Below are positions 29,457-48,642 of a DNA stretch of 49,978 nucleotides, one piece after another. The DNA is taken from the NCBI GenBank assembly GCA_026388515.1, contig JAPLJO010000076.1:1-49978 (forward strand), read 5' to 3'. Position 1 is the first letter of the stretch. The number at the start of each line of letters is the position of its first letter. The notes under the pieces were generated by a model, which was not told where the DNA came from, searched no databases, and worked only from the letters and a program-made list of their open reading frames with translations. This DNA is from Deltaproteobacteria bacterium (GTDB lineage: Bacteria; Desulfobacterota; Syntrophia; Syntrophales; UBA2210). The translations under genes and the position numbers were made by a program.

Positions 29457-29576
29457 TATTGAGATAGAGGGAAATGGAGTGTGGCGACATGGTAGTCTCG
29501 CGACCGGGAAAAAGCAATATGGAAAATCGGGAATCGTTATTCGTAATTCGTCTTACGTCCCTTTCGTACATTCTTT

Positions 29577-29605: not shown

Positions 29606-29639
29606 GTCTGCCACCGAAAGTCACAAGGAGGATGAAGGA

Positions 29640-30572: not shown

Positions 30573-30622
30573 TAAGAAGGTTATCTTCATAAGCTCATGC
30601 GTCACAGAACATTCAGGCAGGG

Positions 30623-31069: not shown

Positions 31070-31085
31070 TTTTGGAGTGGTGCCC

Positions 31086-31190: not shown

Positions 31191-31240
31191 GTGCACTATG
31201 CTCAGCAGTTAAATGATTTGAAGGACTCCGGAATAGACCA

Positions 31241-31885: not shown

Positions 31886-32856
31886 GGAAGATAATCGGCA
31901 ACGAGCGGGGTATCGCGCTCATTCTCGTGATACTCATTCTCAGTGTGATTGTCGCCGTGACGATACAGCTCAACCTCTCCTCGCGGGCCGAGGTATACGA
32001 GGCGGCGAACATGCGGGACGGCATCACGCTCACGTATATCGCCAAGTCGGGATTCAACGGCGGACGTGTCCTCCTGAAGGAGGACATGAACAACTTCGAT
32101 TCGCTGACGGAAGACTGGGCACAGGCAGGTGCGGTATCCGCCGCCTCGGGGTCCCTCTTTGATGACGGGTACTTCAGCCTCGCCATTGAAGACGAGACCG
32201 GAAAAATCCAGGTAAACAGCCTGGTCCCCGGGAGCGGATTCAATCCCGATGTCGAAGCGGTACTGCTCAGGTTTCTGTCGCTTTCCGAATTCGGCCTCAC
32301 CGAAGAGGAGGCCCGTGACATCGTGGATGCCATAAAGGACTGGATTGATGAGGATGACGAGGTGACCGGCTTCGGCGCGGAGGATCTCTATTATCGCGGC
32401 CTCAATCCGCCCTACCGCTGCAAAAACGGTCCCATGGATTGTATTGACGAGCTTTTGATGGTAAAGGGCGTCACCAGAGAACTGTACTACGGGGAGGGTG
32501 AAGTCCCCGGTATCTGCAAGTTTCTTTCCGTTCACGGAAACGGAAAAATTAATATCAATACGGCCCCCAAAGTGGTATTTAAAGCGCTCTCAGTTGACAT
32601 CACCGATGAAATGGCCTCGGAGATGGATGCGTATCGGCGCGATGAGGCGAACGAACTTTCGCAGCCCGGCTGGTACAGATCCGTGCAGGGGATGGCTGAC
32701 ATCACGATACCGAACACTATTATCACCTCGAAAGGCAGCGTCTTCAGCATAACCTCGACCGGCTATCTGAATACCATGACAAGAACCGTGACCGGAATAG
32801 TAGAAAAAAATACCGAGAACAGGACCCTTAAACTGCTCTCCTGGAATGTACGCTGA
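31882..32856 (+). CDS. gspK: Pseudopilin-tip protein GspK
   Basis: The 324-residue GspK begins MRKIIGNERG|IALILVILILSVIVAVTIQLNLSSRAEVYEA. As usual for GspK, the position-5 glutamate found in the other pseudopilins is missing. The large head domain includes EDETGKIQVNSLVPG, EARDIVDAIKDWIDEDDEVTGFGAEDLYY, and GNGKININTAPKVVFKALS with SAM/HhH-like repeats. It caps the pseudopilus and is thought to set its length. It overlaps gspJ by 4 bases and gspL by 1 base. Confidence 0.94.
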   Translation: MRKIIGNERGIALILVILILSVIVAVTIQLNLSSRAEVYEAANMRDGITLTYIAKSGFNGGRVLLKEDMNNFDSLTEDWAQAGAVSAASGSLFDDGYFSLAIEDETGKIQVNSLVPGSGFNPDVEAVLLRFLSLSEFGLTEEEARDIVDAIKDWIDEDDEVTGFGAEDLYYRGLNPPYRCKNGPMDCIDELLMVKGVTRELYYGEGEVPGICKFLSVHGNGKININTAPKVVFKALSVDITDEMASEMDAYRRDEANELSQPGWYRSVQGMADITIPNTIITSKGSVFSITSTGYLNTMTRTVTGIVEKNTENRTLKLLSWNVR

Positions 32857-34391
32857 TGCCGGACAGGATACTGGGGCTCGATATCGGCCATGACAGCGTG
32901 AAGGCGGTGCAGGTGACCCGCGGCCTCAAGGGGTTCAGGGTGACCAATGCCGCCGCCATTACCATTAACGAAGAGAGCGGCATCTCCGGCGCGCTTTCCG
33001 CGCTCTTCGGCAATCCATCGTTCAGAGGGTCCGCCTGCGTGACGGCGCTCTCCATGAAATACTGTTCCTTCCGCACACTCCTTCTCCCGTTCAGGGAACG
33101 CAAGAAAATCAGGCAGACAATCGCCTTTGAGATGGAGCAGCACATTCCCTATCCCATCGACGACGTCATCGTGGATTTCATGATGGTGGAGCAGGGACCG
33201 CAGTCGAAGGTGCTCGCCGCGGCGGTGCCCAAGGAAGCGGTATCCGGCTGTATCAGGCGCCTTGAAGAGCACCACGTGGAGGCCCACGTCATCGATGTGG
33301 ATTCACTGCCCGTTGTCGCCGCGCTTCTCGCCGGCGGGATCGCCGGAGGGTGCGGTCTTTTCTTCGATGTCGGCGCAGAGGATACGGCGGTGGTGCTCTT
33401 TAATAACGGCGCCATTGTACAGGCCCGCCACTTCGCCTTCGGCGGCGCCGCCGTCACCGCCGCGATTGCCCGTGCCGGCGGAATCGATGCCGTGCAGGCG
33501 GAGGCGTTGAAGCGGTCCGGTGATGCCGGGGAGACTGCGGCGGGTGTCCGCGCCGCCTGCCTGCCCTTCCTGCGTGAAGTGCAGAACATGCTGAAATTTA
33601 TCGAGCTCAGGGGAGAGCTCGACACAAAACCTGAAGGAATAATCCTTACCGGGGGAGGAGCGCTTTCAGCGCCGCTCCGTGAAGAGATGGAAAAATTCTT
33701 TTCACTGCCGGTCAGGCTTGCAGACCTCTCCGGTCTCGGCGACCTCACCTTCGACGATGAGGCAAAGGCGTCGTGGGACCCGGCGCTCATGAACCAGGCG
33801 CTGGCGCTCGCGACCGGCGAGATGCGCAAAGAGCCGGGCTTCAATTTCGGACGCGGCGAGTTTGAACCCCGGGGAAAAGTGGAGAAATGGAAGAAGGACC
33901 TCATGCTCATCGCCGTCTCCGTGGCGGTCATCCTTCTCCTTGCGGGTGTCGATTTCTTCCTGGGCTACTACTATGAAAGGGCACATCTGAAAGAAGTGAA
34001 AGGCCGTATTAACGCGGTCTTTGCCGAGGTCGCGCCCGAGGTGACGAAAATCATCGATCCCGTGGGCCAGCTCCGGGCCATCATCGATGAGTCGAAAAAA
34101 ACAGGTTCGGGCGGAAGCCTGCTTGCGTCCGGCATGACCATGCTTGACATCCTGAAGGATATCTCGCGGCTCGTGCCGGCGGAGATGGATTTTGTCATTT
34201 CCAGTTTCACCTTCGATAGCGGCTTCATTGAAGTCAGAGGTGAGACGGACAATTTCAACACCGTTGATGCTATCAAAATGAACCTGGAAAAATCCCCCTT
34301 CTTCAGGAGTGTAACCATAAGCTCCGCGAATCTCATGAAGGGTGAGAGCAGGGTCGGGTTTGACCTGAAGATAGAAATAAAGAGAAAGTAG
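32856..34391 (+). CDS. gspL: GspL-type assembly protein (PilM-PilN fusion)
   Basis: The 511-residue protein joins a PilM-like actin-fold domain to a PilN-like membrane part. Residues 1-325 carry the fold: ILGLDIGHDSVKAVQVTRG, a conserved IAFEMEQHIPYPIDDVIVDF segment, GLFFDVGAEDTAVVLFNNG and ILTGGGALSAPLREEMEKFF. One membrane segment (about 350-370) is followed by a periplasmic ferredoxin-like domain (ILKDISRLVPAEMDFVISSFTF...). GspL links the ATPase GspE to the inner-membrane platform. The type IV pilus-like fusion layout is the form seen in Geobacter-like T2SS. It overlaps gspK by one base. Confidence 0.88.
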   Translation: MPDRILGLDIGHDSVKAVQVTRGLKGFRVTNAAAITINEESGISGALSALFGNPSFRGSACVTALSMKYCSFRTLLLPFRERKKIRQTIAFEMEQHIPYPIDDVIVDFMMVEQGPQSKVLAAAVPKEAVSGCIRRLEEHHVEAHVIDVDSLPVVAALLAGGIAGGCGLFFDVGAEDTAVVLFNNGAIVQARHFAFGGAAVTAAIARAGGIDAVQAEALKRSGDAGETAAGVRAACLPFLREVQNMLKFIELRGELDTKPEGIILTGGGALSAPLREEMEKFFSLPVRLADLSGLGDLTFDDEAKASWDPALMNQALALATGEMRKEPGFNFGRGEFEPRGKVEKWKKDLMLIAVSVAVILLLAGVDFFLGYYYERAHLKEVKGRINAVFAEVAPEVTKIIDPVGQLRAIIDESKKTGSGGSLLASGMTMLDILKDISRLVPAEMDFVISSFTFDSGFIEVRGETDNFNTVDAIKMNLEKSPFFRSVTISSANLMKGESRVGFDLKIEIKRK

Positions 34392-34423
34392 ATCCCGAAA
34401 GGACAGGAGGATTCACGACCGGC

Positions 34424-34957
34424 ATGGATTTCTGGACAAAAATCCCGCTCTCGAAACGTGAAAAGCAGGTGCTCCTTGCAGGCGGCGCCTTCGTGGCGGG
34501 TTTCATTATCCTTCATTTCATAATCTTCCCCCTCATTGATGCGAAGGCGGGAGTCGCACGGGCGATACGCACGCAGGAAAAGGCGCTCCAGGAAATCATC
34601 GCGCTCAGGGAGGAATACCGCGGTCTCGAAATCGATTCGGGCGCTATCAGAAAAGCCGTCGCCTCGAGGCCGAAGGATTTCACGCTCTTTTCCTTCCTCG
34701 AACAGGAGGCCGGTCAGGCAGGGCTGAAATCGAATATCCAGTACATGAAGCCGTCAGCGGTGAATGACGCGGGTCCTTACAAACAGTCGATGGTGGAAAT
34801 GAAGTTAGAGGGTATTACCCTCACGCAGCTTGTTGATTATCTGGCGCTCGTGGAGTCGCCGGAGTATCTGCTGGGCGTCAAGCGTCTGTCGGTCCGGCAG
34901 AGCAAGGGAAGCGAGGGCTACCTGAGCGTACTGCTCCAGATGGTGACATACCAGTAG
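34424..34957 (+). CDS. gspM: GspM/PilO-like secretion protein
   Basis: The 177-residue protein has a short cytosolic head (MDFWTKIPLSKREKQVLLAGG), one membrane segment (about 18-38), a coiled-coil stretch (about 42-70: AGVARAIRTQEKALQEIIALREEYRGLE) and a ferredoxin-like periplasmic domain (TLFSFLEQEAGQAGL...VEMKLEGITLTQLVDYLALVES). This is the GspM/PilO layout; GspM pairs with GspL. AGGAGG lies 12-17 bases before the ATG. The gene falls between gspL and gspN, as expected. Confidence 0.85.
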   Translation: MDFWTKIPLSKREKQVLLAGGAFVAGFIILHFIIFPLIDAKAGVARAIRTQEKALQEIIALREEYRGLEIDSGAIRKAVASRPKDFTLFSFLEQEAGQAGLKSNIQYMKPSAVNDAGPYKQSMVEMKLEGITLTQLVDYLALVESPEYLLGVKRLSVRQSKGSEGYLSVLLQMVTYQ

Positions 34958-34974
34958 GATTATGACATTTTCTC

Positions 34975-35105
34975 AAAAAGTCAGAACAGGGAGGGCAAAG
35001 TAAAAAGGTTCAAATGCAAGGCGCGCAAATTCTGAGGAATGAGGCGTACTGAAATGTACGCCGCAATGACGAAGAATGAAGCGCAACGCAGCAGATGGAC
35101 TTTTT
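34975..35105. repeat. 131-bp imperfect palindromic element before gspN
   Basis: The ends are AAAAAGTC (34975-34982) / GACTTTTT (35098-35105). The centre is a perfect GGCGTAC-TGAAAT-GTACGCC hairpin (35043-35062), and flanking stretches TTCTGAGGAATGA / CAATGACGAAGAA are partly complementary. The right end runs into dispersed repeat copy 3 (ACGAAGCCATCAT to 35118). It takes up nearly all the space between gspM and gspN. Confidence 0.78.
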
Positions 35106-35118
35106 ACGAAGCCATCAT
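35098..35118 (-). repeat. Dispersed repeat copy 3
   Basis: GACTTTTTACGAAGCCATCAT on the plus strand matches the reverse complement of TGATGGCTTCGTAAAAAGTC exactly. It forms the right end of the 131-bp palindrome and lies 2 bases before the first likely gspN ATG. Confidence 0.8.
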
Positions 35119-35119
35119 T

Positions 35120-35941
35120 ATGATGCGATTCAAACCCTGGATAGGATATGTGCTCTACGGCGTGGCGGTGACGCTGGTCTTCCTCTATCTTCTCTTTCCC
35201 GGCGAGGCGCTCATGAGCTATATCAGCGCACGCGCCGAACGCGATTACCCGCAGTGGAATATCGAAATGGCCTCGGCCCGCATGGTGCTCCCCGTGGGAG
35301 TGAAGATGACGAACTGCACAGTATCCCTCAAGAGCAAGCCCGTAGCAGTGCTGAAGGCGGATTCCATGACGGTCCGGCCGTCGCTCTGGGGGTTTCTCAC
35401 GGGCAATCCCTCAGTCTCTCTGAAGGCGAAAATGTATGAAGGGACCGTCAAGGCCGGGGTTGCCACCGTCACGTCGAAGGCGGGGAAAACGGTGGACCTT
35501 GATGTCAGTGTTAACAAGGTGGACATGGGGAAGTGCTCCTTCACGGAGGCGATATTCGGCCGCCGCATTGAAGGCACGCTTGCAGGGTCGCTCACCTACA
35601 AGGGAACCATGGGAACATCCATAGACGGTGACGGAACCGTCACCTTCACACTGCGCGGCGGAACCATACCGCTTTCGAGGGATGTCCTCGGTTTTGAAAA
35701 AGTTTCCTTTGACGTGGTGGATTCCGATCTTGTCCTGAAACGCAAAACACTCCAGGTCAAGAAGCTGAATGTATCGGGCAAGGAAATGAACGGCGACTTT
35801 ACGGGGCGCATGACGCTCCAGGACAATATCATGAAAAGCGCTCTCTCGCTCCGGGGAACCATGGATTTCCCGGCCATGCGAAAAAAGATAACCATGACCC
35901 TGGGGGGCACGCTGGCCGATCCCGTTCCGAGGTTTAAATAG
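35120..35941 (+). CDS. gspN: Type II secretion protein GspN
   Basis: The protein has one N-terminal membrane segment (GYVLYGVAVTLVFLYLLFPGEALMSYI) and a beta-rich AsmA/GspN-like periplasmic body (NCTVSLKSKPVAVLKADSMTVRPSLWGFLTGNPSVSLKAKMYEGTVKAGV...), ending SLRGTMDFPAMRKKITMTLGGTLADPVPRFK. GspN is found in some T2SS and may take part in envelope assembly. The ATG pair at 35120/35123 starts the conserved protein. The frame stays open upstream to 35039, but that part is inside the palindromic repeat and would add unrelated residues. No good ribosome site is present, apparently because the repeat occupies the leader. Confidence 0.85.
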   Translation: MMRFKPWIGYVLYGVAVTLVFLYLLFPGEALMSYISARAERDYPQWNIEMASARMVLPVGVKMTNCTVSLKSKPVAVLKADSMTVRPSLWGFLTGNPSVSLKAKMYEGTVKAGVATVTSKAGKTVDLDVSVNKVDMGKCSFTEAIFGRRIEGTLAGSLTYKGTMGTSIDGDGTVTFTLRGGTIPLSRDVLGFEKVSFDVVDSDLVLKRKTLQVKKLNVSGKEMNGDFTGRMTLQDNIMKSALSLRGTMDFPAMRKKITMTLGGTLADPVPRFK

Positions 35942-35946
35942 GCTCC

Positions 35947-36792
35947 ATGCTGACACGATACAGATACATACTCATACTCGCGATTATCACGGCCGTCTCA
36001 TACCTTGCGGTGGACATCATGTATACCGTGGCGGGAGCGAGGCTGGGCCGCGCCGGGAGTACCGCCATGACGGCGGAGAAACCGGCGGAGAAAAAGGCGC
36101 CGAAGCGCATATCTCAGGCGGAGAGCGATATCATCGTGACACGGAACCTCTTTGCCTCCGCCCGGCGCGCCGCGGCGGGAAAACAGTCCGTCAATGTGGA
36201 TGAACTGCAGGCCACCTCGCTGAACCTTGTACTTCTCGGTACCGTGGCGGGTGAGGGTGACTTCGGCTTTGCCGTCATTTTTGACAGTTCCACGAAACTT
36301 CAGAAGCTCTACAAAGTGGGCGATTCCGTGGGATCGGCCACCGTGCAGAAGGTCATGCGGGGGAAGGTGGTCATCAGCGTGGGCGGCAAGGATGAAGTGC
36401 TCACCATGGCGGAGCAGCCGGTGGCGGGAGCAGGAGTAAAAGCCGCAGGCGCCGAGGCCACGCCCGGGGTGGGACATTCCATCCCCGTGAAAAAAGAGGA
36501 AATCGACACAGCCCTCAAGGACTTGAACGCCATCATGTCGGACGTGAGGGTGCGGCCCAATTTCACCGGCGGCCAGCCCGACGGATTCATGGTGACGAGG
36601 ATAAAGGAGGGAAGCCTCTTCGAAAAAATGGGGATGAAAAACGGCGATATTATCAGGGGTGTCAATGATAAAACCCTGGGAAGTGCCGATGACATGCTCG
36701 CCCTGTACCAGCAGCTGAAGAGCGGCTCCCAGGTGAACCTCAACATCAGGAGGCAGGGTAAGGAGGAAGTGCTGAAATACTCGTTCCAGTAG
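35947..36792 (+). CDS. gspC: Type II secretion linker protein GspC
   Basis: The 281-residue bitopic protein has a membrane anchor (about residues 8-26), a Pro/Ala/Lys-rich spacer, a homology-region domain that contacts the secretin (about 65-150: NLFASARRAAAGK...LNLVLLGTVAGEGDFGFAVIFDSSTKLQKLYKVGDSV), and a C-terminal PDZ domain (about 185-281: GFMVTRIKEGSLFEKMGMKNGDIIRGVNDKTLGSADDMLALYQQLK). It connects the inner-membrane platform to GspD and may help to choose substrates. It starts 5 bases after gspN. Confidence 0.93.
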   Translation: MLTRYRYILILAIITAVSYLAVDIMYTVAGARLGRAGSTAMTAEKPAEKKAPKRISQAESDIIVTRNLFASARRAAAGKQSVNVDELQATSLNLVLLGTVAGEGDFGFAVIFDSSTKLQKLYKVGDSVGSATVQKVMRGKVVISVGGKDEVLTMAEQPVAGAGVKAAGAEATPGVGHSIPVKKEEIDTALKDLNAIMSDVRVRPNFTGGQPDGFMVTRIKEGSLFEKMGMKNGDIIRGVNDKTLGSADDMLALYQQLKSGSQVNLNIRRQGKEEVLKYSFQ

Positions 36793-36820
36793 CGGGAACG
36801 TGAAGGGGCAATCCGGCGTC

Positions 36821-37753
36821 ATGTATGAATCGTTTTTCGGACTGAAGGAAAGCCCGTTTAACCTGACTCCCGACCCCCGGTATCTTTTTCTCAGCACGCA
36901 GCACCGGGAGGCGCTCAATCATCTCCTCTACGGTGTGAAAGAGCGCAAGGGATTCATCGTCATGACGGGGGGAATCGGGACGGGGAAGACCACGCTCTGC
37001 CGGGCCTTTCTCGCGGCTCTCGATGCCGCGGTGGACAGCGCCCTGGTCTTCAATGCCGGCGTATCCGACACGGAACTCCTGAAGACCGTCGTGCAGGAAT
37101 TTGACATAAAGATGGGAAAGGGGCGGAAAACGAAAAAGAACTATGTCGACGCCCTGAACCAGTTTCTCCTGAAAGGGTTCTCAGAAGGAAGGAACGCGGT
37201 GGTTCTCATCGACGAGGCGCAGAATTTGTCACGCGGCGTACTCGAACAGCTCCGGATGCTTTCCAACCTGGAAACGGACCGGGAAAAGCTGCTCCAGATC
37301 GTGCTCCTCGGGCAGCCGGAACTGCAGGAGTTGCTCCAGTCGCCGTCGCTGCGGCAGCTCAACGAGCGCATCACGGTACGGTACGAACTGGCGCCGCTCG
37401 ATCAAATACAGGTCCGGGAATATATAGAGCACAGGATTGCCGTGGCCGGTGACGGGAACGCGAAAGTCACCTTTGTGCCGGGCGCATACAAACTTGTATT
37501 CGGCTACTCACGGGGGATTCCCCGGCGCATCAATGCCATCTGTGACAGGGCGCTCCTTATTGCCTACACGAAGGATTCGCCCGTGGTCACGACCGGAATG
37601 GTCCGGCAGGCGACGCACGATATCGGCGGGGGGTATCTCCGTGGTTTCCCCGGCTTCCAAGGGGACCGGGCGATACTCATGGTGGTGGCGCTCATCCTCT
37701 CCGCCTGTACCATTTTCCTGATTGCGCTGGTGCTGTGGCAGAACTCGCTGTGA
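36821..37753 (+). CDS. gspA: GspA/ExeA-type AAA ATPase
   Basis: The 310-residue protein begins MYESFFGLKESPFNLTPDPRYLFLS, the usual ExeA/GspA start. Walker A is GGIGTGKTT (K56) and Walker B lies in AVVLIDEAQNLS. One membrane segment is near the C-terminus (about 283-303). ExeA acts with ExeB to place the secretin through peptidoglycan. The C-terminal peptidoglycan-binding domain of Aeromonas ExeA is missing, so this is the short form. ATG at 36821 is preferred from homology; an in-frame GTG at 36800 would add seven residues. The GspB-like gene follows by 45 bases. Confidence 0.9.
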   Translation: MYESFFGLKESPFNLTPDPRYLFLSTQHREALNHLLYGVKERKGFIVMTGGIGTGKTTLCRAFLAALDAAVDSALVFNAGVSDTELLKTVVQEFDIKMGKGRKTKKNYVDALNQFLLKGFSEGRNAVVLIDEAQNLSRGVLEQLRMLSNLETDREKLLQIVLLGQPELQELLQSPSLRQLNERITVRYELAPLDQIQVREYIEHRIAVAGDGNAKVTFVPGAYKLVFGYSRGIPRRINAICDRALLIAYTKDSPVVTTGMVRQATHDIGGGYLRGFPGFQGDRAILMVVALILSACTIFLIALVLWQNSL

Positions 37754-37798
37754 CGGAGAAATAAAAAGAAAAATTATTCATTCCTGTGGCGAAACGAT

Positions 37799-38497
37799 AT
37801 GAGTTATATTAATGATGCGCTTAAAAAGGCGCAGAAAGAAAAAGACGGCCTCTACAAGTACTACCATACCATTATCTGGGCGAAGGACGGCGGGGGCGGA
37901 AAAGGGAAAAAGCGAAGAACGCTCATCCTATGCGGCGCCGCGGTGCTCGTACTGGTGATTGCCGGTGTGGTGGCATACAAACTCATCGCCGGTCCCGGAG
38001 TGAAAGCCGCCTCTTCCACGGGGGTTCGCCGGGAGGTCACGCAGGAACGCATGCAGGCCGCATCACGGGAATCGTCGCGCGACGCAAGAAAACAGATGGC
38101 GGCTGAAGATGTTCCGAAACTCTATGAAGAAGCGCTCTCCTTCCAGCGGGCGAAAGATCCTGCCGGTGCGGAGCGTGCATATCGGAAACTGCTTCGGGTG
38201 GATCCGCGGCATGCCCATGCATTGAATAACCTGGGAGTCATTTATATGAGCCGCCGGGAGTACGGCAGGGCGGCGATGATGTTTGAGCGGGCATCGACGG
38301 CCGACGGGAACTATACCGACGCGTACTACAATCTTGCCTGCCTGTACTCGCAGACGAAAGATGCCGGCACAGCGCTGGAGAATCTGAAAAAGGCATTTGC
38401 ACTGGATCCCGCGGTGCGCACCTGGGCGGAGCGTGATGGGGACCTGGAGCCCCTGCGGTCGCAGGCGGGGTATAAAGAAGTATTCAGTAAAAAATGA
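37799..38497 (+). CDS. gspB: GspB-like protein with TPR repeats
   Basis: The 232-residue protein opens with MSYINDALKKAQKEKD, the hallmark N-terminus of GspB/ExeB. It then has a basic patch (KGKKRR) and one membrane segment (about 40-62). The C-terminal half is a TPR array (about 102-215: EDVPKLYEEALSFQRAKDPAGAERAYRKLLRVDPRHAHALNNLGVIYMSRREYGRAAMMFERA). Typical GspB has a different periplasmic domain, so this is a variant. The TPRs would face the periplasm and could bind secretin, substrate or peptidoglycan enzymes. It lies between gspA and gspD. Confidence 0.85.
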   Translation: MSYINDALKKAQKEKDGLYKYYHTIIWAKDGGGGKGKKRRTLILCGAAVLVLVIAGVVAYKLIAGPGVKAASSTGVRREVTQERMQAASRESSRDARKQMAAEDVPKLYEEALSFQRAKDPAGAERAYRKLLRVDPRHAHALNNLGVIYMSRREYGRAAMMFERASTADGNYTDAYYNLACLYSQTKDAGTALENLKKAFALDPAVRTWAERDGDLEPLRSQAGYKEVFSKK

Positions 38498-38550: not shown

Positions 38551-40929
38551 ATGAAAACGTCAATGAAAGTAATACTGGTGGCGGTTGCGGGGTTCTTCCT
38601 GTGCGTATCATGGTACATGACGCCGCCGATCGCACAGGGCGCCCGCGTAACGGGAGAGGACAATGTAATTTCAACCACCGATGAGCAGGGGGGCGGCGAC
38701 ACAAAACCCGCGGCCCCGGTGCCGGAGGCCATGAGACCTTTTACACCTCCGGCTCCGGTAGTACCGCAGGAACCCCGGCGCATTGAGCCTTCTCCCGCTG
38801 AAGACGCGGGTGCACCGGAAGAGCCTGCGATCGGAACCGTTGAAGCCGCGCCATCCGGCGAGGAAGTACCGGTATCCCCGCCTCAGGAAGAGGCGGTAAC
38901 TCCCCCGGAAGAACCGGGGGCCACTGAACCCGAAGCCGGCATGCCGGCGCCCGAAATGGGTCAGGGAAAGCAGGATCGACGCCCCGCGGCAAGGCCCCGC
39001 ACCCGTATTGCAGCAGGAGAAGCCGCTCTTCCCTCTGGAACGACGACCACGCCGGGTGCGAAAAAAATAGAGATGCCTCCGAAGGGTGCGAAGTTCGTCA
39101 CCATCGACTTCGACGAGGTTGATATCAGGGTTTTCATAAAATTCATGAGCGAGCTCACGGGAAAGAACTTCATCATAGACAATAACGTCAAGGGAACGGT
39201 GACGGTCATGTCGCCCCGGAAGATATCCATCGACGAAGCGTTCAAGGTATTCGAGTCCGTCCTCGAAGTCCATGATTTCACCGCCGTGCCGTCGGGAGAC
39301 GTAATCAAGATCGTGCCCTTCCGGAGCGCCAAGGAAAAGAGTATCGAAACGCTCCTCCGGGAAGAGGCGCAGAGTCCCGAAGACAAGGTGGTCACCCAGA
39401 TAATCCCGCTCAAGTTCGCCGATCCCGAGGAGATGAAGAAAATTCTCACCCCCCTCATGTCGAAATCAAGCATCGCGCTTTCCTATACACCCACGGGCAT
39501 GCTGATTATCACCGACCTCCTCTCCAATATCGAAAGGCTCATGATAATCATCCAGGCGCTCGACGTGGAGGGCGTGGAAGAGCAGATTGCCGTCCTGCCG
39601 CTCCAGTATGCCAATGCGGCGGAAATTGCCAAATCACTCACGCAGATATTCCAGAAGGGAGCGGGCCAGGCGAAAAAGGAGACCATCCAGGGAGGCGTGA
39701 AAATAATCCCCGATGACCGGACCAATTCGCTCGTCATACTGGCAAGTGAAAATACGAGGGTACGCATCAAGGAACTGATCGCACTCCTCGACAAGGAAGT
39801 GCCGCGCGGCGAGGCGAAAATCCGAGTGTACCGTCTGCAGAACGCCCAGGCGGATGAACTGGCCAAGGTCCTCGCCGGCATCCCTACGTCGAAAGACTCA
39901 AAAGGGGGCACAGCGCCGGCGGCGGAAGTGCCGGCTCTTTCAAAGGATGTGAAAATCGTGCCCGACAAGGCGACCAATACCCTCGTCATCACGGCAAGCA
40001 GGGATGACTATAATGTACTGGAAGAGGTCATCAAGCAGCTCGATGTCCCCCGGCCCATGGTGTACATCGAAGCCCTCATCATGGAAGTGAACGTGAACAA
40101 GGACTTCAGGCTCGGCGTGAACTGGATGGGCGGTGAAGATTTTACCTTCAATGATCGCCAGGCTTTGTACGGCGGGGGATTCACCGGCGGCAATATTCTG
40201 CCGAGCGTCAGTTCGACCGGTGCGGTAACCCTGCCAACGGGGCTTGCCGTGGGTGTTATCGGTGAAGCCATCACCATCGGCGGCGTTACCTTTCCGTCAC
40301 TGAGCGCGGTGCTCCAGGCATATAAGAAGGATGAGGATGTGAATATACTCTCCACGCCGCAGATCATGACCCTCGACAATAACGAGGCGGAGATACAGGT
40401 GGGGGAAAATGTTCCCTACCTCACGCGGCAGGAAACATCGACCACCGACCGCGATTACAGCACCTATGAATACAAGGACGTGGGAGTGACGCTGCGCCTC
40501 ACCCCGCAGATAAGCCAGGAACGGTTCGTGAAACTGGCGATTTTCCAGGAGGTCACCAAACTTGTCTCGCAAAGCGATGTGCGGCCCACCACGCTGAAGC
40601 GCACCACAAAAACCACCGTCACCATCAAGGACGCCAATACCGTGGTCATCGGCGGCCTTATCGGGGACGATGTATCGGATACGGAATACAAGATTCCTCT
40701 TCTGGGGGACATCCCCATTCTGGGATGGCTTTTCAAGTACAAGACTGATATCCGCGGCCGGCGGAACCTCTTCATCTTCATCACCCCCCATATCGTGGAA
40801 TCACCCGTGGAGGCGAAAGCGATCTTCGAGGAAAAGCGCGAGCATATGGATTCGCTTGAGGAGGGGGTAATAAGACGGTACCAGTGGAATCGTGACGCCG
40901 CCAAGGAGGAAGGGGCGAACCCGGAATAA
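38551..40929 (+). CDS. gspD: Type II secretion secretin GspD
   Basis: The 792-residue outer-membrane channel has a signal region (VILVAVAGFFLCVSW), an unusually Pro/Glu-rich linker (about residues 50-165), then N0 (about 170-250, FVTIDFDEVDIRVFIKFMSELTGKNFIIDNNV), N1 (TQIIPLKFADPEEMKKIL), N2 (IAVLPLQYANAAEIAKSL) and N3 (RVYRLQNAQADELAKVLAGI). The secretin barrel follows, with QVGENVPYLT, VGVTLRLTPQIS and KIPLLGDIPILGWLFKYKTDIRGRRNLFIFITPHIV. It forms the gated pore. ATG at 38551 is the more plausible start; TTG at 38521 overlaps the repeat region. A pilotin (GspS) gene was not found nearby. Confidence 0.96.
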   Translation: MKTSMKVILVAVAGFFLCVSWYMTPPIAQGARVTGEDNVISTTDEQGGGDTKPAAPVPEAMRPFTPPAPVVPQEPRRIEPSPAEDAGAPEEPAIGTVEAAPSGEEVPVSPPQEEAVTPPEEPGATEPEAGMPAPEMGQGKQDRRPAARPRTRIAAGEAALPSGTTTTPGAKKIEMPPKGAKFVTIDFDEVDIRVFIKFMSELTGKNFIIDNNVKGTVTVMSPRKISIDEAFKVFESVLEVHDFTAVPSGDVIKIVPFRSAKEKSIETLLREEAQSPEDKVVTQIIPLKFADPEEMKKILTPLMSKSSIALSYTPTGMLIITDLLSNIERLMIIIQALDVEGVEEQIAVLPLQYANAAEIAKSLTQIFQKGAGQAKKETIQGGVKIIPDDRTNSLVILASENTRVRIKELIALLDKEVPRGEAKIRVYRLQNAQADELAKVLAGIPTSKDSKGGTAPAAEVPALSKDVKIVPDKATNTLVITASRDDYNVLEEVIKQLDVPRPMVYIEALIMEVNVNKDFRLGVNWMGGEDFTFNDRQALYGGGFTGGNILPSVSSTGAVTLPTGLAVGVIGEAITIGGVTFPSLSAVLQAYKKDEDVNILSTPQIMTLDNNEAEIQVGENVPYLTRQETSTTDRDYSTYEYKDVGVTLRLTPQISQERFVKLAIFQEVTKLVSQSDVRPTTLKRTTKTTVTIKDANTVVIGGLIGDDVSDTEYKIPLLGDIPILGWLFKYKTDIRGRRNLFIFITPHIVESPVEAKAIFEEKREHMDSLEEGVIRRYQWNRDAAKEEGANPE

Positions 40930-41171: not shown

Positions 41172-42674
41172 ATGCATAGCATGCAGAAAATGTTGAGTGT
41201 ATGTGTGGTGATACTCTCCGTCCTCGCGGTATTCCCGCCGGTGACGGCATCGGGGAGTTCAGGCAATACCTACTTTGACCTCGGTGTCTTTGCGTATGAG
41301 GGCGGTAAGTACGAGGAGGCTGTTGGAAATTTCAACCAGGCCCTCGCCACCGGCGCCGACAAGGGGCTCGTCTATCACTACCTGGGGAAAACCTATCTTG
41401 CCATGGAGAAGTTCGACGACGCCTCATACTACCTCGACTGGGCCTCGAAAATGAACCCTGAATTGCCGGGACTCACCTACGACAGGGCCATGCTTTCCTA
41501 CCGGCTCTCACAGTATGCCGCGGCGGGGGACCTCTTCACGGAGGTCGCGGATAAGGAACCGGCCAATGTGCTTGCACGGTACTACGCGGGAATATGTCTC
41601 TTTAAACAGGAGAACTACAATGACGCGCTTCCCTTTTTCATCGCCGCCGGCGATCAGAGCCCCACGCTGAAGGGAAACTGCTCCTACTACGCGGGCATCT
41701 GCTATGCGAAAGTCGGAGACTCCCCGCGGGCGCTTACGCAGTTCAAAAACGTCAGCGCCGCCACCGACGATGAACTCCTGAAAAAATATGCCGCCTCATG
41801 GCTGGAGCTTTACGAGGCGCGCGAAAAGGCGAAAGTTGAGAAGCCCTATGAGCTCTACGCAAAAGTAGGGGTGCAGTACGACAGCAACGTGGTCCTCGAG
41901 CCGGTCAATGCTGATATCTATGCCAATGACGACGACTTTGCCATAGTGGGTTATTTTTCCGGCACCTATGATCTGCTCGCGACTGATGCATGGAGAGGGG
42001 GCGTCGGCTATACCCACTATCAGACCGGCTACAGCCGCCTCAGCGAGTATGCCGTCATCGGGAGCATCGGACAGCTGTATGTGAATTACCGCGCACATCC
42101 GTTCACGTTTTCCCTGAGCTATCTTCCCCAGTACTACTGGGTTGATGCCGACAGTTTTCTCATGCGCCACCAGGTGCGCCCCGAGTTGCTCTGGAAAGTG
42201 AATGATAAAGTGATCACCCGGCTCACCGCCAGTTATTACAAGAACAATCACTTTGAGGACAACGGCAGGGACGGCAATACCGTCGAGGCATCCTTTGATG
42301 CCTTCTACCGGCTGGGTGAGGAGGGAAGTTATCTCCTGGGAGGCATCGCGTACGAGAAGGAAAACGCCGAGAACAATAATTATGACTGCGGAGAATACCG
42401 CCTGAAGCTCGGCATCACCATGGTATTTCCCAGTGACGTGCAGGTGAGCGCCGTGGCGAAATACTACAAAAAGGTGTTCAAGAATGAAGATACCTTCTTC
42501 GGTGTCCAGCGGGAAGATAACAGGTATCAGGGCTCGTTTTCGGTGGAGAAGAAGCTCTGCTATGACTGGCTCTTTGTGGCGGGTGAATTCAGCCTGGCAA
42601 AGAACGATTCCAATATTGACAGCTTCACCTATAAGAGAAATGTGACAACGCTCTCGCTGGTGGCACGATATTAA
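41172..42674 (+). CDS. Exported TPR protein with C-terminal outer-membrane barrel
   Basis: The 500-residue protein has a signal peptide (about residues 1-28, VILSVLAVFPPVTASG), a TPR array (about 30-225: NTYFDLGVFAYEGGKYEEAVGNFNQALATGADKGLVYHYLGKTYLAMEKFDDASYYLDWASKMNPE...) and a beta-barrel (about 235-500) made of alternating strands such as YELYAKVGVQYDSNVVLEP, HPFTFSLSYLPQYYWVD and VITRLTASYYKNNHF. It ends LSLVARY with a terminal aromatic residue, the outer-membrane insertion signal. TPR plus barrel recalls Slam-type surface-lipoprotein translocators and related families, but I cannot assign it to one. FecR-domain and PKD-protein genes follow. Confidence 0.78.
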   Translation: MHSMQKMLSVCVVILSVLAVFPPVTASGSSGNTYFDLGVFAYEGGKYEEAVGNFNQALATGADKGLVYHYLGKTYLAMEKFDDASYYLDWASKMNPELPGLTYDRAMLSYRLSQYAAAGDLFTEVADKEPANVLARYYAGICLFKQENYNDALPFFIAAGDQSPTLKGNCSYYAGICYAKVGDSPRALTQFKNVSAATDDELLKKYAASWLELYEAREKAKVEKPYELYAKVGVQYDSNVVLEPVNADIYANDDDFAIVGYFSGTYDLLATDAWRGGVGYTHYQTGYSRLSEYAVIGSIGQLYVNYRAHPFTFSLSYLPQYYWVDADSFLMRHQVRPELLWKVNDKVITRLTASYYKNNHFEDNGRDGNTVEASFDAFYRLGEEGSYLLGGIAYEKENAENNNYDCGEYRLKLGITMVFPSDVQVSAVAKYYKKVFKNEDTFFGVQREDNRYQGSFSVEKKLCYDWLFVAGEFSLAKNDSNIDSFTYKRNVTTLSLVARY

Positions 42675-42685
42675 GGAGACAGACT

Positions 42686-43666
42686 ATGAGAGTATCGGAA
42701 AAAATATCAATCTATGCCGTATTCGGAGTGCTGGTCCTTTTCGCTGCCGTACAGGCCATGGCCGCAGGCGGCGCGTCGGGGTTGATTCCCGCGGGGCTCG
42801 TGATTGAAAACACCTTCAAGCCGGGACTGGGCGCGCCCGTGGGATCCGTCCTCTTCGTCGAAGGAGAGGCGCTTCTCATTCACGCCGATTCGAAAACCGG
42901 TTTCCGGGCCGCACAAGGGCTTCCGCTCTTCAAGAGCGACACCATCATCACCCGCGAGGCGGCACGCCTTCAGTTCGGCCTCAATGATGGGAGCCGGATG
43001 ACGCTCTCATCGGGAACGAAGCTTGCCATCACGAGCAGCGTCTATGACCCCGCCCGGAATGCCCGCTCGTCGTTTCTCGACATGAGCGTCGGCAAGGCGC
43101 GGTTTCTCGTCTCGAAGCTCATCGGTGCGGGCAGCCTTGACTTCAAGGTGAAGACGGAAACGTCAGTCTGCGGTGTTCGCGGGTCCGACTTCATCGTGGT
43201 GGCGACGCCCCAGGCCACGGACGTGACGGCACTCAAAGAGACCGCACTCGAAGTGGGAAGTCTCGCCTATCCCGATGTGAAACCCATCGTGCTTGCCTCG
43301 TATGAAAGAACAGACGTCAGGAAGGGCGAGCTGCCGTCGGCGGTGACGAGAGTTTCTCCCGAGGAAATAGAAAGAATGCTTGACGAGTTCAGGGTCGCGC
43401 CCGCAGGGCCGGCGGCAGAGGGAGCGGCGCCTCCCGTAGGTATACTCGTCCCTCCGGAGGAACTGGTGGCGCCGGAATTTCCCGTCGAGGCAATGGAAAA
43501 GGGCGGTCCTGCACTGCCTGATTTCATGAAGGTGGAACTCTTCAAGGAAAATGTGGACAACGTGATTGACCAGCAGAATCAAATTTCCGAACAGGACCAT
43601 GAACAGTCGGTAATCGACGAAATTAATAAAATGGACCTTCCCGGGATACCCGGGACCCCGCAGTAA
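42686..43666 (+). CDS. Exported FecR-domain protein
   Basis: The 326-residue protein has a signal segment (SIYAVFGVLVLFAAVQAMAAG) and a FecR domain (about 50-170: GSVLFVEGEALLIHADSKTGFRAAQGLPLFKSDTIITREAARLQFGLNDGSRMTLSSGTKLAI and ETSVCGVRGSDFIVVATP). A Pro/Glu-rich stretch and a hydrophilic C-terminus (NVIDQQNQISEQDHEQSVIDEINKMDLPGIPGTPQ) follow. Unlike iron-signalling FecR it has no partner sigma factor and no inner-membrane anchor beyond the signal. Periplasmic FecR proteins often accompany TPR barrels and surface proteins, with possible cell-wall or barrel-binding roles. It begins 11 bases after the TPR-barrel gene. Confidence 0.82.
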   Translation: MRVSEKISIYAVFGVLVLFAAVQAMAAGGASGLIPAGLVIENTFKPGLGAPVGSVLFVEGEALLIHADSKTGFRAAQGLPLFKSDTIITREAARLQFGLNDGSRMTLSSGTKLAITSSVYDPARNARSSFLDMSVGKARFLVSKLIGAGSLDFKVKTETSVCGVRGSDFIVVATPQATDVTALKETALEVGSLAYPDVKPIVLASYERTDVRKGELPSAVTRVSPEEIERMLDEFRVAPAGPAAEGAAPPVGILVPPEELVAPEFPVEAMEKGGPALPDFMKVELFKENVDNVIDQQNQISEQDHEQSVIDEINKMDLPGIPGTPQ

Positions 43667-43684
43667 GTGGAAAGGCGATAGTGG

Positions 43685-43709
43685 TACAGAGGCACAGAGG
43701 GGCAAAGGC
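43685..43709 (+). repeat. Purine-rich ACAGAGGCACAGAGG repeat, left copy
   Basis: ACAGAGGCACAGAGGGGCAA and the bases after it form a purine/C-rich tract of the AGGCACAAAGG type. A second copy (46843-46861) lies at the other end of the PKD-protein gene. Confidence 0.5.
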
Positions 43710-43843
43710 ATCCTCTCCAGTAGCTAATGGGAGAGATTAGGTGAGAGTGAGGCATAAAATCCCAGAGGCGTGGAGAAGGCGCATATTATAAGGTTAAAAT
43801 TGAAAAACCCCAGTTATAAAATTCGCAAAGCAGGAGAGGGAAC

Positions 43844-46843
43844 ATGAAGCGTTTCCGTGGTTGTTCGATCATAGCAGTATTCGCCATCGCGGTCATCTGT
43901 ATCTTCATGAGTCGAAGCGAAGTGGCGGCGGAGGGAGATCATACGTACACAGGAACTGCCAAAATCCAATATTCTGAACTGGGAGAATTGTTCGGGTTCG
44001 AATTTCCCTTGGGATATGAGCATATTGCTTGGAGTAATTCGATGGAGGGATTTCCTATAGTAGAGGGATTTTCCATAAGCTATACGGTGGATGATGGTGA
44101 CGTCGAACTACTTGATTATCATACCTGGTCGGCCTATGATTACAGGGATGACGAAGGCGATTTCCCAGGTATTGTGATAGTGCCAGATTCATATATCGAA
44201 AGACAGAATGACGACGACTGGCTCATAATCGATAGCACGACAAGAACAATCGATGAAATACTCGACATTCACCAGACACTGGTGATGAAAAAATCGGAAT
44301 CACGGGTAGAGTTGACGATGAGCGTTGAGAACATGAGTCCTTACCCCGTGAGCAACATACGGATAAAGCGGGTCTGCGACCTTGACCTCGATGTAGACAG
44401 AGACGACGGTACATATGGGTGGGCGAATGTGGCAGATACCTGGTTCGAGCTCCTTGAAAATGGAGTCCGATGCTACACGACGGTGCCCCCTTTAGGAAGA
44501 GAAGCACACTCGATGAGCATGTATGGTATTCCCACACCGACATGGTTCGGTGCCGATGATTTGTACACGTATTATGATGGTAGTATTGCAGATTTGTTCC
44601 AGAGAGACAATTATCCCGAATTTGCGCCGGGAGACTATCCGGTTAAGTATGATTACTCAATAACCCTTTCCTGGGATCTTGCTGGTCAAATTCTTGAAGA
44701 AGGGGACACGTCAAGCCCCGTGACCGTGGTCTATTCAATGGGTATTGAGGAAACCAACAAACCGAACGGCGAAACCACGGATAGTGCCGGAGTGCCCAAA
44801 ACCGAATTCACGACGCTGGATAACATCTATGTGAGGGGAAGTCATTTCCCGGCAAACAGAGATGTAAATATATATATCGTTCCCGATCAGGGGTGGGCAG
44901 GCGGCGAAGCGATACCCGCGGATGTCGGGGACGGCATGAATACCGTGATGACCGATTCAGAGGGAAATATTAACGTAAATCTAATCTGGTCTTCGCCCCT
45001 TGAGGCCGGCGAGTATGATGTTGTAATTGACGGTTATGGCGGTTATGGCGGCATGTATGACTATGAAACGGATGCTGCCATAGGGGACGGCTTCGTGGGA
45101 TTTACGGTCACTGCCCCTGAGAATGTAGGTCCCACAGCCAACGCAGGTCCCGACAAAACCGTGACTGAAGGAGAACAGATGACACTGGACGGGTCCGGCT
45201 CCACAGACCCCGATGATGGTATTGCCTCATATCTCTGGGAGCAGATTGGCGGTCCGCCGGTTACGATCGATAATGCGGATCAGGCGATTGCCGGCTTTAC
45301 CGCTCCTCAGATAGGGCCGATTATTCTGCCGGAGCAGCTTTTCTTCAGGCTTACCGTGACGGATTTCGGCGGCCTTTCCGATGACGACATCTGCCTATTC
45401 AATGTCGTAAACAACCTTCCCCCGGTAGCAGACGCAGGAGCCGACCAGGCCATAATGGAAAACAAGAAGGTAACCCTCGACGGATCGGGCTCCCATGACC
45501 CCGACGGCGTCATCGTTTCCTACTTCTGGGAACAGACGAAAGGGCCGGCGGTGACCATAGCCGATCCTTCGGCGGTGACGACCACCTTCATTACACCCGG
45601 TTATGAGGAAGGTAACTACCTGCTTGAGTTCACCCTCACCGTGACGGACGACGGGGGACTTGCCGGACAGGATACATGCCAGGTGACGGTGGTTGAAAAT
45701 ATGCCGCCGGAGATCCCGGTCCAGACAGGGCCCGCGGATGGAGAACTCTTCGGGAGCGGCGAACCGGTCACCCTTACCTCCAGTCCCTATTCAGATCCGG
45801 AGGGTAATCCTCACGTGGAAACCTCATGGATGATACGGAGAATTGACCGCCCCACGTATGATTATCAGCATGTCTCGGTAACGGAACTTGAAGAGTATGT
45901 GGCGACGGGACTCCCTTCGGGACTCCAGTATGCCTGGATGGTGGGATACAAAGATATGGGAAGCAAGGACAATTCGTGGTCCGTGAATGAGTGGACCTTC
46001 ACTGTGGGAACGTTTACCGTTGATACGAGCGTAAAGGTGCCCACGGGATGGGGCATCAATGATTACCTCATGGTGTCATTCACCATCTGGCCCGAGGACC
46101 CGGCGGCGACAAGCGCCTTCGGCGTGGCACCCGATACCACGAAGATTCGGATCGGGACTTACGACCCCACCCTCGGAGAGACAGGCGGCTACTTTGAGTA
46201 TGGGGATCCCAACCTCTTCGTGAAGCCCGGAACCTCGTACTGGTTCCTTGTGAAGGGCGGCTTCAACGCTGTCATTGACGGCATTCCTGTGAGCCTCGAT
46301 GTAGATGTCGACATTCCGCTCCTTTACAATGCCGGCAACGCAAATGGCTGGAACATGATTGCGGCGCCCAATAATGCGAACTACAAGTGGGATGATGTGG
46401 AAGTCCTCGAATATGATACCACCGGCGCCATCGTGCAGGGCCCGACGCGCATCGACGACCTCTCTTACGAGAATACCATGATCGACAAGAAGCTCTGGCG
46501 GTGGGAGAGCGGCACCTACGCTTCAGACACCGCCGAGATTGAGAAACACTCCGGTTACTGGTTGAAAGCGAAGAGGGCGAACGTGTGGCTCCGGTTCCCC
46601 GCAGACGTACATCTGGCGGCAAAGGGCATCACGGAGTTTTACGCATCGCTCATGATGAAGGAAGCGTCGAAAATGGCAAAGGCCTGGGGAATCACGCCCG
46701 CCTATGCCGCGACCGACACATCGGATACACCGCCCATGCCGATGGGAGGATTCACGGATACAAATACGGGTTCGAATTCCGCCTCATCTTCGAAGGAAGG
46801 CGGCAGCGGCGGCTGCTTTGTTGGGACAACGACCAGGCAGTAG
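43844..46843 (+). CDS. Large exported PKD-domain protein, likely secretion cargo
   Basis: The 999-residue protein has a signal peptide (IIAVFAIAVICIFMSRSEVAA|EG) and an N-terminal region of unknown fold rich in Asp (about 30-300). A TIG-like segment (about 325-420, DNIYVRGSHFPANRDVNIYIVPDQG) is followed by two PKD domains (about 430-520 and 526-618, each with TLDGSGS and LTVTD). Then come an FN3-like part (about 620-715) and a C-terminal beta region. The tail is SSKEGGSGGCFVGTTTRQ, with a Gly-rich run and one Cys. The first third is less GC-rich than its neighbours. Position inside a T2SS locus suggests it is secreted or displayed by that system; this is inference. The GGAGAGGG ribosome site is good. 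Confidence 0.82.
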   Translation: MKRFRGCSIIAVFAIAVICIFMSRSEVAAEGDHTYTGTAKIQYSELGELFGFEFPLGYEHIAWSNSMEGFPIVEGFSISYTVDDGDVELLDYHTWSAYDYRDDEGDFPGIVIVPDSYIERQNDDDWLIIDSTTRTIDEILDIHQTLVMKKSESRVELTMSVENMSPYPVSNIRIKRVCDLDLDVDRDDGTYGWANVADTWFELLENGVRCYTTVPPLGREAHSMSMYGIPTPTWFGADDLYTYYDGSIADLFQRDNYPEFAPGDYPVKYDYSITLSWDLAGQILEEGDTSSPVTVVYSMGIEETNKPNGETTDSAGVPKTEFTTLDNIYVRGSHFPANRDVNIYIVPDQGWAGGEAIPADVGDGMNTVMTDSEGNINVNLIWSSPLEAGEYDVVIDGYGGYGGMYDYETDAAIGDGFVGFTVTAPENVGPTANAGPDKTVTEGEQMTLDGSGSTDPDDGIASYLWEQIGGPPVTIDNADQAIAGFTAPQIGPIILPEQLFFRLTVTDFGGLSDDDICLFNVVNNLPPVADAGADQAIMENKKVTLDGSGSHDPDGVIVSYFWEQTKGPAVTIADPSAVTTTFITPGYEEGNYLLEFTLTVTDDGGLAGQDTCQVTVVENMPPEIPVQTGPADGELFGSGEPVTLTSSPYSDPEGNPHVETSWMIRRIDRPTYDYQHVSVTELEEYVATGLPSGLQYAWMVGYKDMGSKDNSWSVNEWTFTVGTFTVDTSVKVPTGWGINDYLMVSFTIWPEDPAATSAFGVAPDTTKIRIGTYDPTLGETGGYFEYGDPNLFVKPGTSYWFLVKGGFNAVIDGIPVSLDVDVDIPLLYNAGNANGWNMIAAPNNANYKWDDVEVLEYDTTGAIVQGPTRIDDLSYENTMIDKKLWRWESGTYASDTAEIEKHSGYWLKAKRANVWLRFPADVHLAAKGITEFYASLMMKEASKMAKAWGITPAYAATDTSDTPPMPMGGFTDTNTGSNSASSSKEGGSGGCFVGTTTRQ

Positions 46844-46861: not shown

Positions 46862-46944
46862 CGTACACACTCTCACTTCAAACTTAAGGCGGGGCAGGGA
46901 GACGCCGCGGGGCGCTTCCTGCCTTGTGGTATATGGAGTACTTC

Positions 46945-48642
46945 ATGGATAACGCGGCAGACAACAACAACTCAGCCATCAGCAGCCTGGGACTTTCCGG
47001 GGAGGCGCTTGACGAGGCGAGAAAAACACTCACCGCAAAAGGCGGCAGCATCGTGGAGATCCTCGTGCAGAAGAAAGCCGCCCAGGAGCTTGAACTTCTT
47101 CACGCCCTCTCCCGTGATACGGGTATTCCTTTCTGGCCCGAGCTTCCCGAGGAGGACCTCTCGGGAGACTTCACGGGGCGCGTTCCCATCCAGTACCTGA
47201 GGCGGTATAAAGTGCTGCCGTTGAAGCTTCCCGAGGGTACGGTAATTGCCGTCAACGATCCCTCGAACTTTCAGCCCGTTGATGATTTGAGGCATCTCCT
47301 CGGCATTGAAGGCGTGCCGCTCATCCTCTCGACCCAGCAGGCCATACTCTCCGCCATCAACCGCGCCTATGACAGAAGCAGCGGCGCCGCCGAGGATTTC
47401 ATCCAGGACATGGCCGACGAGTCGGCGGACAGCATCATCTCGGAAATCGACGGAACGGCGGACCTTCTCGATGATACGAGCGATGCCCCGATTATCAGGC
47501 TGGTGAACCTCATGTTCGCGCAGGCCGTGAGGGACCGGGCGAGCGATATTCACATCGAGCCCTACCAGAACGCCCTCGCCGTGCGGTACCGCATTGACGG
47601 CGTCCTCTACAACACCATGCGACTTCCCAAGCGCATCCAGTCGTCCCTGATCTCCCGCGTGAAAATCATGGCGAAAATGAACATCGCCGAAAAAAGGCTC
47701 CCCCAGGACGGGCGTATCGACATCAAAATCGGCGACAAGCTCGTGGACATACGGGTATCCACCATTCCCATCGCCTTCGGGGAGCGCATTGTGCTGAGAC
47801 TCCTCGACAAGTCAACGCGGATGTTTTCCCTCTCCGAGCTTGGTCTTGATGAGAAGAACCTTGATTTACTCGATTCGCTCATCAAGTCACCCTACGGCAT
47901 CATCCTCGTCACGGGGCCCACGGGAAGCGGAAAGACGACCACCCTCTATGCGGCGCTTTCCACCATCAACAATCCCGATATCAATATCATCACCATCGAG
48001 GACCCCATCGAATACCAGATCGAGGGCATCGGGCAGATTCAGGTGAACCCGAAGATTGACCTCACCTTCGCGATGGGGCTCCGCTCCATCGTGCGCCAGG
48101 ACCCCGACGTCATCCTCGTGGGCGAGATACGCGACCGCGAGACGGCGGAAATCGCCATTCAGTCATCACTCACGGGGCACCTCGTGTTCTCCACGCTCCA
48201 CACCAACGATGCGGCGAGTGCCGTGACGCGCATCATCGATATGGGCATCGAGCCGTTCCTCGTATCCTCGTCGGTGATCGCCATCATCGCCCAGCGCCTC
48301 GTGCGTGTTCTCTGCAGCGACTGTAAGGAGTCCTACGTCCCCGACGATGCCTCGCTCGCGAAAGTCGGTATCGAAAGAGCTCAACTGAGGGATAACCGAG
48401 TCTACCACCAGAAAGGATGCCAAGCCTGCATGCACACGGGATACCGCGGGAGGAGCGCGATCTTCGAGATGATGGTCATGGACGACAATCTTAAAAAACT
48501 CGTGCTGAAGACCTCCGACGCCAACCAGATTCGAAAAGAGGCGGTCCAGGCGGGCATGCTGACCCTCATGCGGGACGGCACGCAGAAAGTCATCGAAGGA
48601 ACGACAAATATTGAAGAGATCTTCAGGGTGACGCGGATGTAG
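46945..48642 (+). CDS. gspE: Type II secretion motor ATPase GspE
   Basis: The 565-residue hexameric ATPase powers pseudopilus growth. It has the N-terminal domain that binds GspL (about 10-150), then the catalytic core: Walker A GPTGSGKTT (324-332, K330), an Asp box (ITIEDPIEYQIEGI), Walker B (DPDVILVGEIRDRETAEIA) and a His box (LTGHLVFSTLHTND). The zinc-binding cysteines C457, C460, C492 and C495 are present, as in GspE/PilB. ATG at 46945 follows GGAG with 6-base spacing; earlier in-frame codons (46924, 46933) lie upstream of that site. It is separated from gspD by three envelope genes and from gspF by 20 kb. Confidence 0.96.
   Translation: MDNAADNNNSAISSLGLSGEALDEARKTLTAKGGSIVEILVQKKAAQELELLHALSRDTGIPFWPELPEEDLSGDFTGRVPIQYLRRYKVLPLKLPEGTVIAVNDPSNFQPVDDLRHLLGIEGVPLILSTQQAILSAINRAYDRSSGAAEDFIQDMADESADSIISEIDGTADLLDDTSDAPIIRLVNLMFAQAVRDRASDIHIEPYQNALAVRYRIDGVLYNTMRLPKRIQSSLISRVKIMAKMNIAEKRLPQDGRIDIKIGDKLVDIRVSTIPIAFGERIVLRLLDKSTRMFSLSELGLDEKNLDLLDSLIKSPYGIILVTGPTGSGKTTTLYAALSTINNPDINIITIEDPIEYQIEGIGQIQVNPKIDLTFAMGLRSIVRQDPDVILVGEIRDRETAEIAIQSSLTGHLVFSTLHTNDAASAVTRIIDMGIEPFLVSSSVIAIIAQRLVRVLCSDCKESYVPDDASLAKVGIERAQLRDNRVYHQKGCQACMHTGYRGRSAIFEMMVMDDNLKKLVLKTSDANQIRKEAVQAGMLTLMRDGTQKVIEGTTNIEEIFRVTRM

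Follow-up and report, generated by a model that had tools for sequence, protein, structure and literature searches.

What do genes for a TPR-barrel protein, a FecR-domain protein and a large PKD protein do between the T2SS genes gspD and gspE, and is the T2SS the machinery they serve? The question arises in the window, the 49,978-nucleotide stretch of DNA analysed here, which belongs to genome G000. A sequence-only reading had placed the three genes there, and open reading frames with matching domains were found for all of them.

Three envelope genes between gspD and gspE

The triplet and the surrounding T2SS locus are made up as follows.

25088..38497, + strand: remaining T2SS locus, with gspF at 25088, gspG at 26361, gspI at 30623, a gspJ-like gene at 31241, gspK at 31882, gspL at 32856, gspM at 34424, gspN at 35039, gspC at 35947, an ExeA/GspA-like ATPase gene at 36800 and a TPR protein gene at 37799
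38551..40929, + strand: gspD secretin, likely ATG start (TIGR02517, 538.9 bits against a cut-off of 351)
41172..42674, + strand: Slam/T11SS-like outer-membrane TPR-barrel protein, 500 aa (PF04575 SlipAM, several TPR models)
42686..43666, + strand: stand-alone FecR-domain periplasmic protein, 326 aa (PF04773, 1.4e-11)
43844..46843, + strand: large secreted modular PKD protein, 999 aa (PKD domain matches)
46799..46840, + strand: C-terminal tail of the PKD protein, GGSGGCFVGTTTRQ, a short CFI-box-like putative sorting motif, alike in paralogues and relatives
46933..48642, + strand: gspE ATPase, in-frame ATG at 46933 or 46945 (TIGR02533, 693 bits against a cut-off of 630)

Core T2SS genes were found in the locus, and, judged by eye, all three proteins of the triplet begin with a plausible Sec signal sequence. 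The triplet had also been credited with a promoter of its own; a candidate (TTGACC-18-TAAAGT) does exist at 41000-41029, but it is weak, and promoter-type patterns matched nine times across the region against 4.4 expected.

Two further genes of the window were noted. A lipoprotein-like open reading frame with a weak carboxypeptidase regulatory domain lies 3' of gspE (48884-49978) and runs off the contig end. Near the T2SS genes, on the opposite strand (27337-28026, −), a CPBP/Rce1-like CAAX protease is encoded that is weakly similar to the myxosortase-type enzymes MrtJ and MrtS. We rejected it as the enzyme that processes the tail of the PKD protein, because this short tail offers nothing obvious to cleave.

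The triplet is a conserved unit and a local insertion

Relatives from the same family and order have gspE directly after gspD in 17 T2SS loci, which makes the triplet a local insertion and not part of an ancestral T2SS operon. In a genome of the same family but another genus (G005) the triplet lies 3' of gspD, where the contig then ends, and a second copy, at another place, has the PKD gene first, then those for the TPR-barrel and FecR. Of these two G005 copies, the one away from the T2SS locus (C3) is nearer to the window unit than is the one within it (C27), with identities of 61% versus 48% for the TPR-barrel, 58% versus 49% for the FecR protein and 56% versus 51% for the C-terminal module of the PKD protein. 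A tree of the barrels gave the same placement. As all three genes are closer to the same G005 copy, the unit appears to be passed on as a whole, irrespective of where it lies.

The conserved unit was seen in the window, in the two G005 copies and at loci L138, L142 and L145, with related units at L185, L192 and L195. At L138, L142 and L145 a long third protein carries a C-terminal module and tail of the window type, and none of the three lies in a T2SS operon; a gspC homologue is found about 6.6 kb upstream of the unit at L142, and a prepilin peptidase gene is nearby at L138. A position beside gspD was found in G000 and G005 only. The expectation that the triplet would be conserved near gspD or gspE thus held for the gene set but not for its location, and the proposed three-gene surface-display unit is, as a conserved set, consistent with display. 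Since the unit usually lies away from T2SS genes, it is unlikely in general to be a T2SS-specific device, and that part of the earlier proposal finds no support in the form given. Since the gspD-gspE position is restricted to two genomes, one might also suppose that the triplet is a chance grouping of genes that have nothing to do with one another. However, the set recurs across several lineages, with either gene order, and this conserved neighbourhood contradicts a chance association, which we consider scarcely credible.

The PKD protein ends in a putative sorting motif

The PKD protein matches PF22352 (5.6e-38) and PF18911 (1.7e-20), with two PKD domains. These follow a variable head and precede an Ig-like/GWNMI C-terminal module and the tail. 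The C-terminal module aligns with those of relatives (alignments A4 and A6), and the heads of these relatives differ, consisting of beta-helix, FG-GAP or propeller-like repeats. The head of the window's PKD gene is GC-poor (48% versus 56-58%). Together these observations suggest that in PKD-type proteins the C-terminal module is kept while the surface head can be exchanged.

In the window protein the chain stops eight residues past the cysteine of the tail. The corresponding tails are GGGCFITTTKAH in a G000 PKD paralogue on contig C148 and EGGCFITTTEAP and GGSCFISTTLGR in the two G005 copies, and CFI-type tails were also found on unrelated G000 proteins (GGGGCFIDTMSQ and GGGGCFISTLHMY). A Gly-rich run followed by CF[IV]xT at the C-terminus is common to the window, C148, C139 and C130 tails, and a DNA pattern for the motif matched four times in the G000 genome, compared with no matches for the reversed control. 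The NCBIfam model NF041763, a 14-position 'CFI-box putative sorting motif', did not match the window tail and gave 14.1 bits versus 15.9 with the C139 tail of G000. Other families of the order have a long form of the motif, in which CFIATAAYGS is followed by about 100 further residues. A protein at L197 combines a C-terminal module of the window type with such a long CFI-box, and it includes a hydrophobic stretch and, close to the end, KRRK. Because the homologous module bears the long form there, a truncated CFI-box is the best reading of the window tail.

We know of no machinery associated with the CFI-box putative sorting motif, and no paper on it was found in the open-access literature. 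The TPR/FecR pair was considered as general CFI machinery and rejected: CFI-positive genomes often have no FecR match, and the C148 paralogue is also without the pair. Both G000 PKD paralogues, on C148 (L084) and C83 (L085), have no TPR or FecR neighbours on the stretch read, the C83 gene being cut by the contig end.

CFI tails and the T2SS

Across 80 genomes, a gspE orthologue was present in 17 of the 20 with a CFI protein and in 26 of the 60 without one (Fisher p=0.0016; within-family permutation p=0.04), a correlation obtained with a strict DNA pattern plus hand-curated matches. The G005 contig stops short of gspE, and this genome was counted by its other T2SS genes; strict-pattern matches in G016 and G031 were discarded, no C-terminal tail having been found. 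In G001 (L117, 7180-9090) an S8-like protease with the tail GGSCFITSLISQ adjoins gspE in convergent orientation. These findings agree with what is described for MYXO-CTERM proteins, in which an invariant cysteine goes with dependence on the T2SS (PMC11980579). For the PKD protein itself, T2SS export is no more than possible.

These data bear most directly on a rival explanation, which takes up the model of the sequence-only reading: the T2SS would export the PKD protein, and at the cell surface the barrel/FecR pair would only retain or sense it, with the CFI cysteine added as an anchor in the manner of MYXO-CTERM. The position of the triplet, inserted between gspD and gspE in G000 and next to gspD in G005, fits this explanation, as do the more frequent gspE orthologues of CFI-positive genomes, the protease adjoining gspE in G001, the MYXO-CTERM precedent (PMC11980579) and the presence of core T2SS genes. 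On the other hand, the unit stands outside T2SS operons in Desulfobacterota relatives, of the two G005 copies it is the one away from the T2SS locus that the window unit resembles more, and the correlation leans on a strict DNA pattern and hand curation. We regard this explanation as rather unlikely, if still one to be reckoned with.

A Slam/T11SS-like barrel

The TPR-barrel protein consists of a signal peptide, TPRs at about residues 33-220 and a predicted barrel at about 222-500. In Pfam, SlipAM (PF04575) matched residues 303-495 with 41.7 bits against a gathering threshold of 22, and the TPR_Slam match was sub-threshold. In two sets of barrel relatives SlipAM was found in 8/18 and 6/12 and TPR_Slam in 14/18 and 11/12, many of these matches being sub-threshold, and some relatives matched generic porin models (BBP2_2). 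A PDB search with alignment A5 returned TPR proteins only, among the matches listed. Nine full-length relatives, 35-44% identical, were obtained from a scan of GTDB genomes; their hosts are MAGs named Desulfobacteria, Desulfobacterales, Desulfobacteraceae or Deltaproteobacteria. At E<1e-50 the barrel is present in 20 of 395 genomes of the phylum, mostly paired with FecR.

The sequence-only reading had taken this protein for an outer-membrane barrel with periplasmic TPRs and had suggested that, as a pair with FecR, it retains or senses the PKD protein. Its description as an outer-membrane TPR protein stands; that reading had overlooked the SlipAM (Slam/T11SS) identity of the barrel, as well as the C-terminal tail of the PKD protein. 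As Slam/T11SS is the type of a protein translocator, the barrel itself may be the export route for the PKD protein, beyond any retention.

A TPR plus barrel layout is also that of PgaA, BcsC and PelB. The barrel could accordingly export a polysaccharide, like PgaA or BcsC, which the FecR and PKD proteins would bind or organise, and the BBP2_2 matches could be cited in support of this along with the common layout. However, SlipAM is the best barrel model, and no conserved glycosyltransferase or synthase gene was seen beside the unit among its partly labelled neighbours. Polysaccharide export is accordingly a very unlikely function.

The FecR partner

A FecR gene lies directly 3' of the barrel gene in about 40 loci, forming a near-invariant pair; for the nine full-length barrel relatives, a stand-alone FecR gene comes next wherever the contig allows. 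FecR is the sole Pfam domain of the window protein. All 11 FecR proteins compared are weakly similar to the LapA retention module NF033682 (best 1.2e-6), the window protein scoring 20.3 bits, under the curated cut-off of 50. The stand-alone FecR proteins of the window's group share a conserved C-terminal ending of the LPxxPxxP type (alignment A7; window 43640-43663). CHASE2 cyclases or a CHASE2 kinase are encoded near TPR-barrel/FecR units at L182, L187, L194 and L195.

Classically, FecR is a signalling domain, and the FecR protein and barrel might form a surface-signalling receptor with the PKD protein as its ligand-binding head. Such a sensory unit would agree with this classical role and with the CHASE2 cyclases or kinase near several related units, and operons combining LysM-FecR with a CHASE2 kinase have been described and provide a precedent (PMC5192318). 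In contrast, no sigma factor gene lies beside the window FecR gene, the neighbours of which are gspD, the TPR-barrel and PKD genes and gspE, and the triplet likewise has no adjoining CHASE2 protein or kinase. The FecR protein has a signal peptide and no cytoplasmic domain, and the conserved partner in the window's group is a CFI-tailed protein. We therefore judge a sensory function improbable.

Fused and free-standing FecR proteins

A tree of 42 barrels contained a supported clade A (99/98) and, as its sister, a less well supported group B (81/78) that includes the window. Most clade-A FecR domains sit at the N-terminus of a passenger of about 900-2800 aa, and many of these passengers share a C-terminal domain, A2. 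In group B, FecR is free-standing. The unit adjoins a protein with a CFI-type C-terminus at 10 of 13 readable group-B loci (the window, L064, L065, L138, L142, L145, two L185 units, L192 and L195), whereas none was found at the 19 clade-A loci (Fisher p about 4e-6, kinship ignored), with locus readability and some tail calls decided by hand, many loci stopping at contig edges and most genomes being MAGs. The CFI protein comes last in the window and at L065, L138, L142 and L145, and first at L064, L185 and L192.

PDB searches with alignments A2, A6 and A7 gave no significant match. Domain A2 was rejected as a relative of TbpB_B_D, as hhalign against the L081 domain failed to relate the two. At L081 itself (525-4992, genome G048) a TPR-barrel is followed by a FecR protein with a TbpB_B_D-like C-terminus (E=3e-4, below cut-off), possibly a T11SS cargo fused to FecR.

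A candidate surface-display cassette

The explanation that we favour, while giving it somewhat less than an even chance, is that the triplet is a surface-display cassette in which the barrel and FecR handle the CFI-tailed PKD protein at the outer membrane. The PKD protein would cross the inner membrane by Sec, as its signal peptide suggests. The barrel would then pass it to the surface or hold it there, assuming that transport runs in the direction of export, and the FecR protein would stay in the periplasm as an adaptor or a plug for retention, the role that the fused FecR would have in clade A. The C-terminal module and CFI tail would mark the cargo, with the tail cysteine probably a modified or anchoring residue. 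Given that FecR and passenger are either fused (clade A) or separate (group B), a barrel that passes or holds the passenger and a periplasmic FecR that serves as plug or adaptor is the simplest common scheme. What the data establish are the domains, the conserved gene set, the tail and its association with one group of barrels; the export direction, the plug role and the modification of the cysteine are inferred.

In favour of the cassette are the SlipAM match of the window barrel and of many relatives, the near-invariant FecR partner, the CFI-type neighbours of group B and the closeness of all three window genes to one and the same G005 copy. In addition, the clade-A fusion ties FecR to a passenger, the set is kept in both gene orders, and the faint similarity of FecR to the LapA retention module fits a plug role. 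However, this similarity is below the curated cut-off, the PKD protein does not have the 8-stranded C-terminal barrel of known T11SS cargo, and CFI-tailed proteins also occur without TPR/FecR, so that some of them do not depend on the pair.

More tentatively, display could be the work of a distinct outer-membrane secretion/display system for CFI-box proteins, built from a T11SS-related barrel and a near-obligate FecR. With the same reserve we propose that such a system has two versions, with FecR either fused to the passenger or free-standing with a CFI-tailed passenger. If true, this would be the first machinery tied to the CFI-box motif, as far as could be found. No description of a TPR-barrel/FecR/CFI-tailed composition was found in the open-access literature; FecR-linked barrels may still be described elsewhere.

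Comparison with known systems

Descriptions of T11SS come from Proteobacteria, where the cargo ends in a barrel. The window unit resembles T11SS/Slam systems in the N-terminal TPRs and C-terminal SlipAM barrel of its outer-membrane protein and in a large, putatively exported protein that is gene-linked to it. In contrast, the partners of the window barrel are a FecR protein and a CFI-tailed modular protein, and the hosts of such units are Desulfobacterota-type bacteria. Known T11SS cargo has an 8-stranded barrel at its C-terminus (PMC5449769, PMC12282271), whereas the PKD protein has no TbpB-type C-terminal barrel; with Pfam, neither it nor the window FecR protein gave a match to a TbpB_B_D or lipoprotein C-type C-terminal barrel. 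FecR is not mentioned in the T11SS/Slam literature searched.

The FecR domain (PF04773) is common to the window protein and the FecI/FecR anti-sigma regulators, but the window FecR has a signal peptide (by eye) and no cytoplasmic anti-sigma part. With LapA-type adhesins it shares a weak, sub-threshold likeness to their N-terminal retention module, and in clade A FecR is likewise N-terminal on giant proteins; unlike these adhesins, the window unit has no ABC exporter. The LysM-FecR/CHASE2 operons (BiofilmReg, PMC5192318) also encode a FecR-domain protein in an envelope operon, but the triplet is without LysM, CHASE2 kinase or response regulator.

The MYXO-CTERM/myxosortase/T2SS system has in common with the window tail a C-terminal motif with a conserved cysteine in T2SS bacteria, whereas the window tail has no TM helix or Arg-rich end. 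The tail agrees with the CFI-box (NF041763) in its Gly-rich stretch followed by CF[IV]xT near the C-terminus of a secreted modular protein, but differs from the long form at L197 in having none of the roughly 100-residue region, the hydrophobic stretch or the basic end. The window unit presents a barrel related to that of T11SS but from bacteria other than those in which T11SS is described; its partner is a different one, based on FecR, and its cargo is a candidate for a new class. The unit also gives CFI-box tails, which NCBI lists just as a putative sorting signal, a link by gene neighbourhood.
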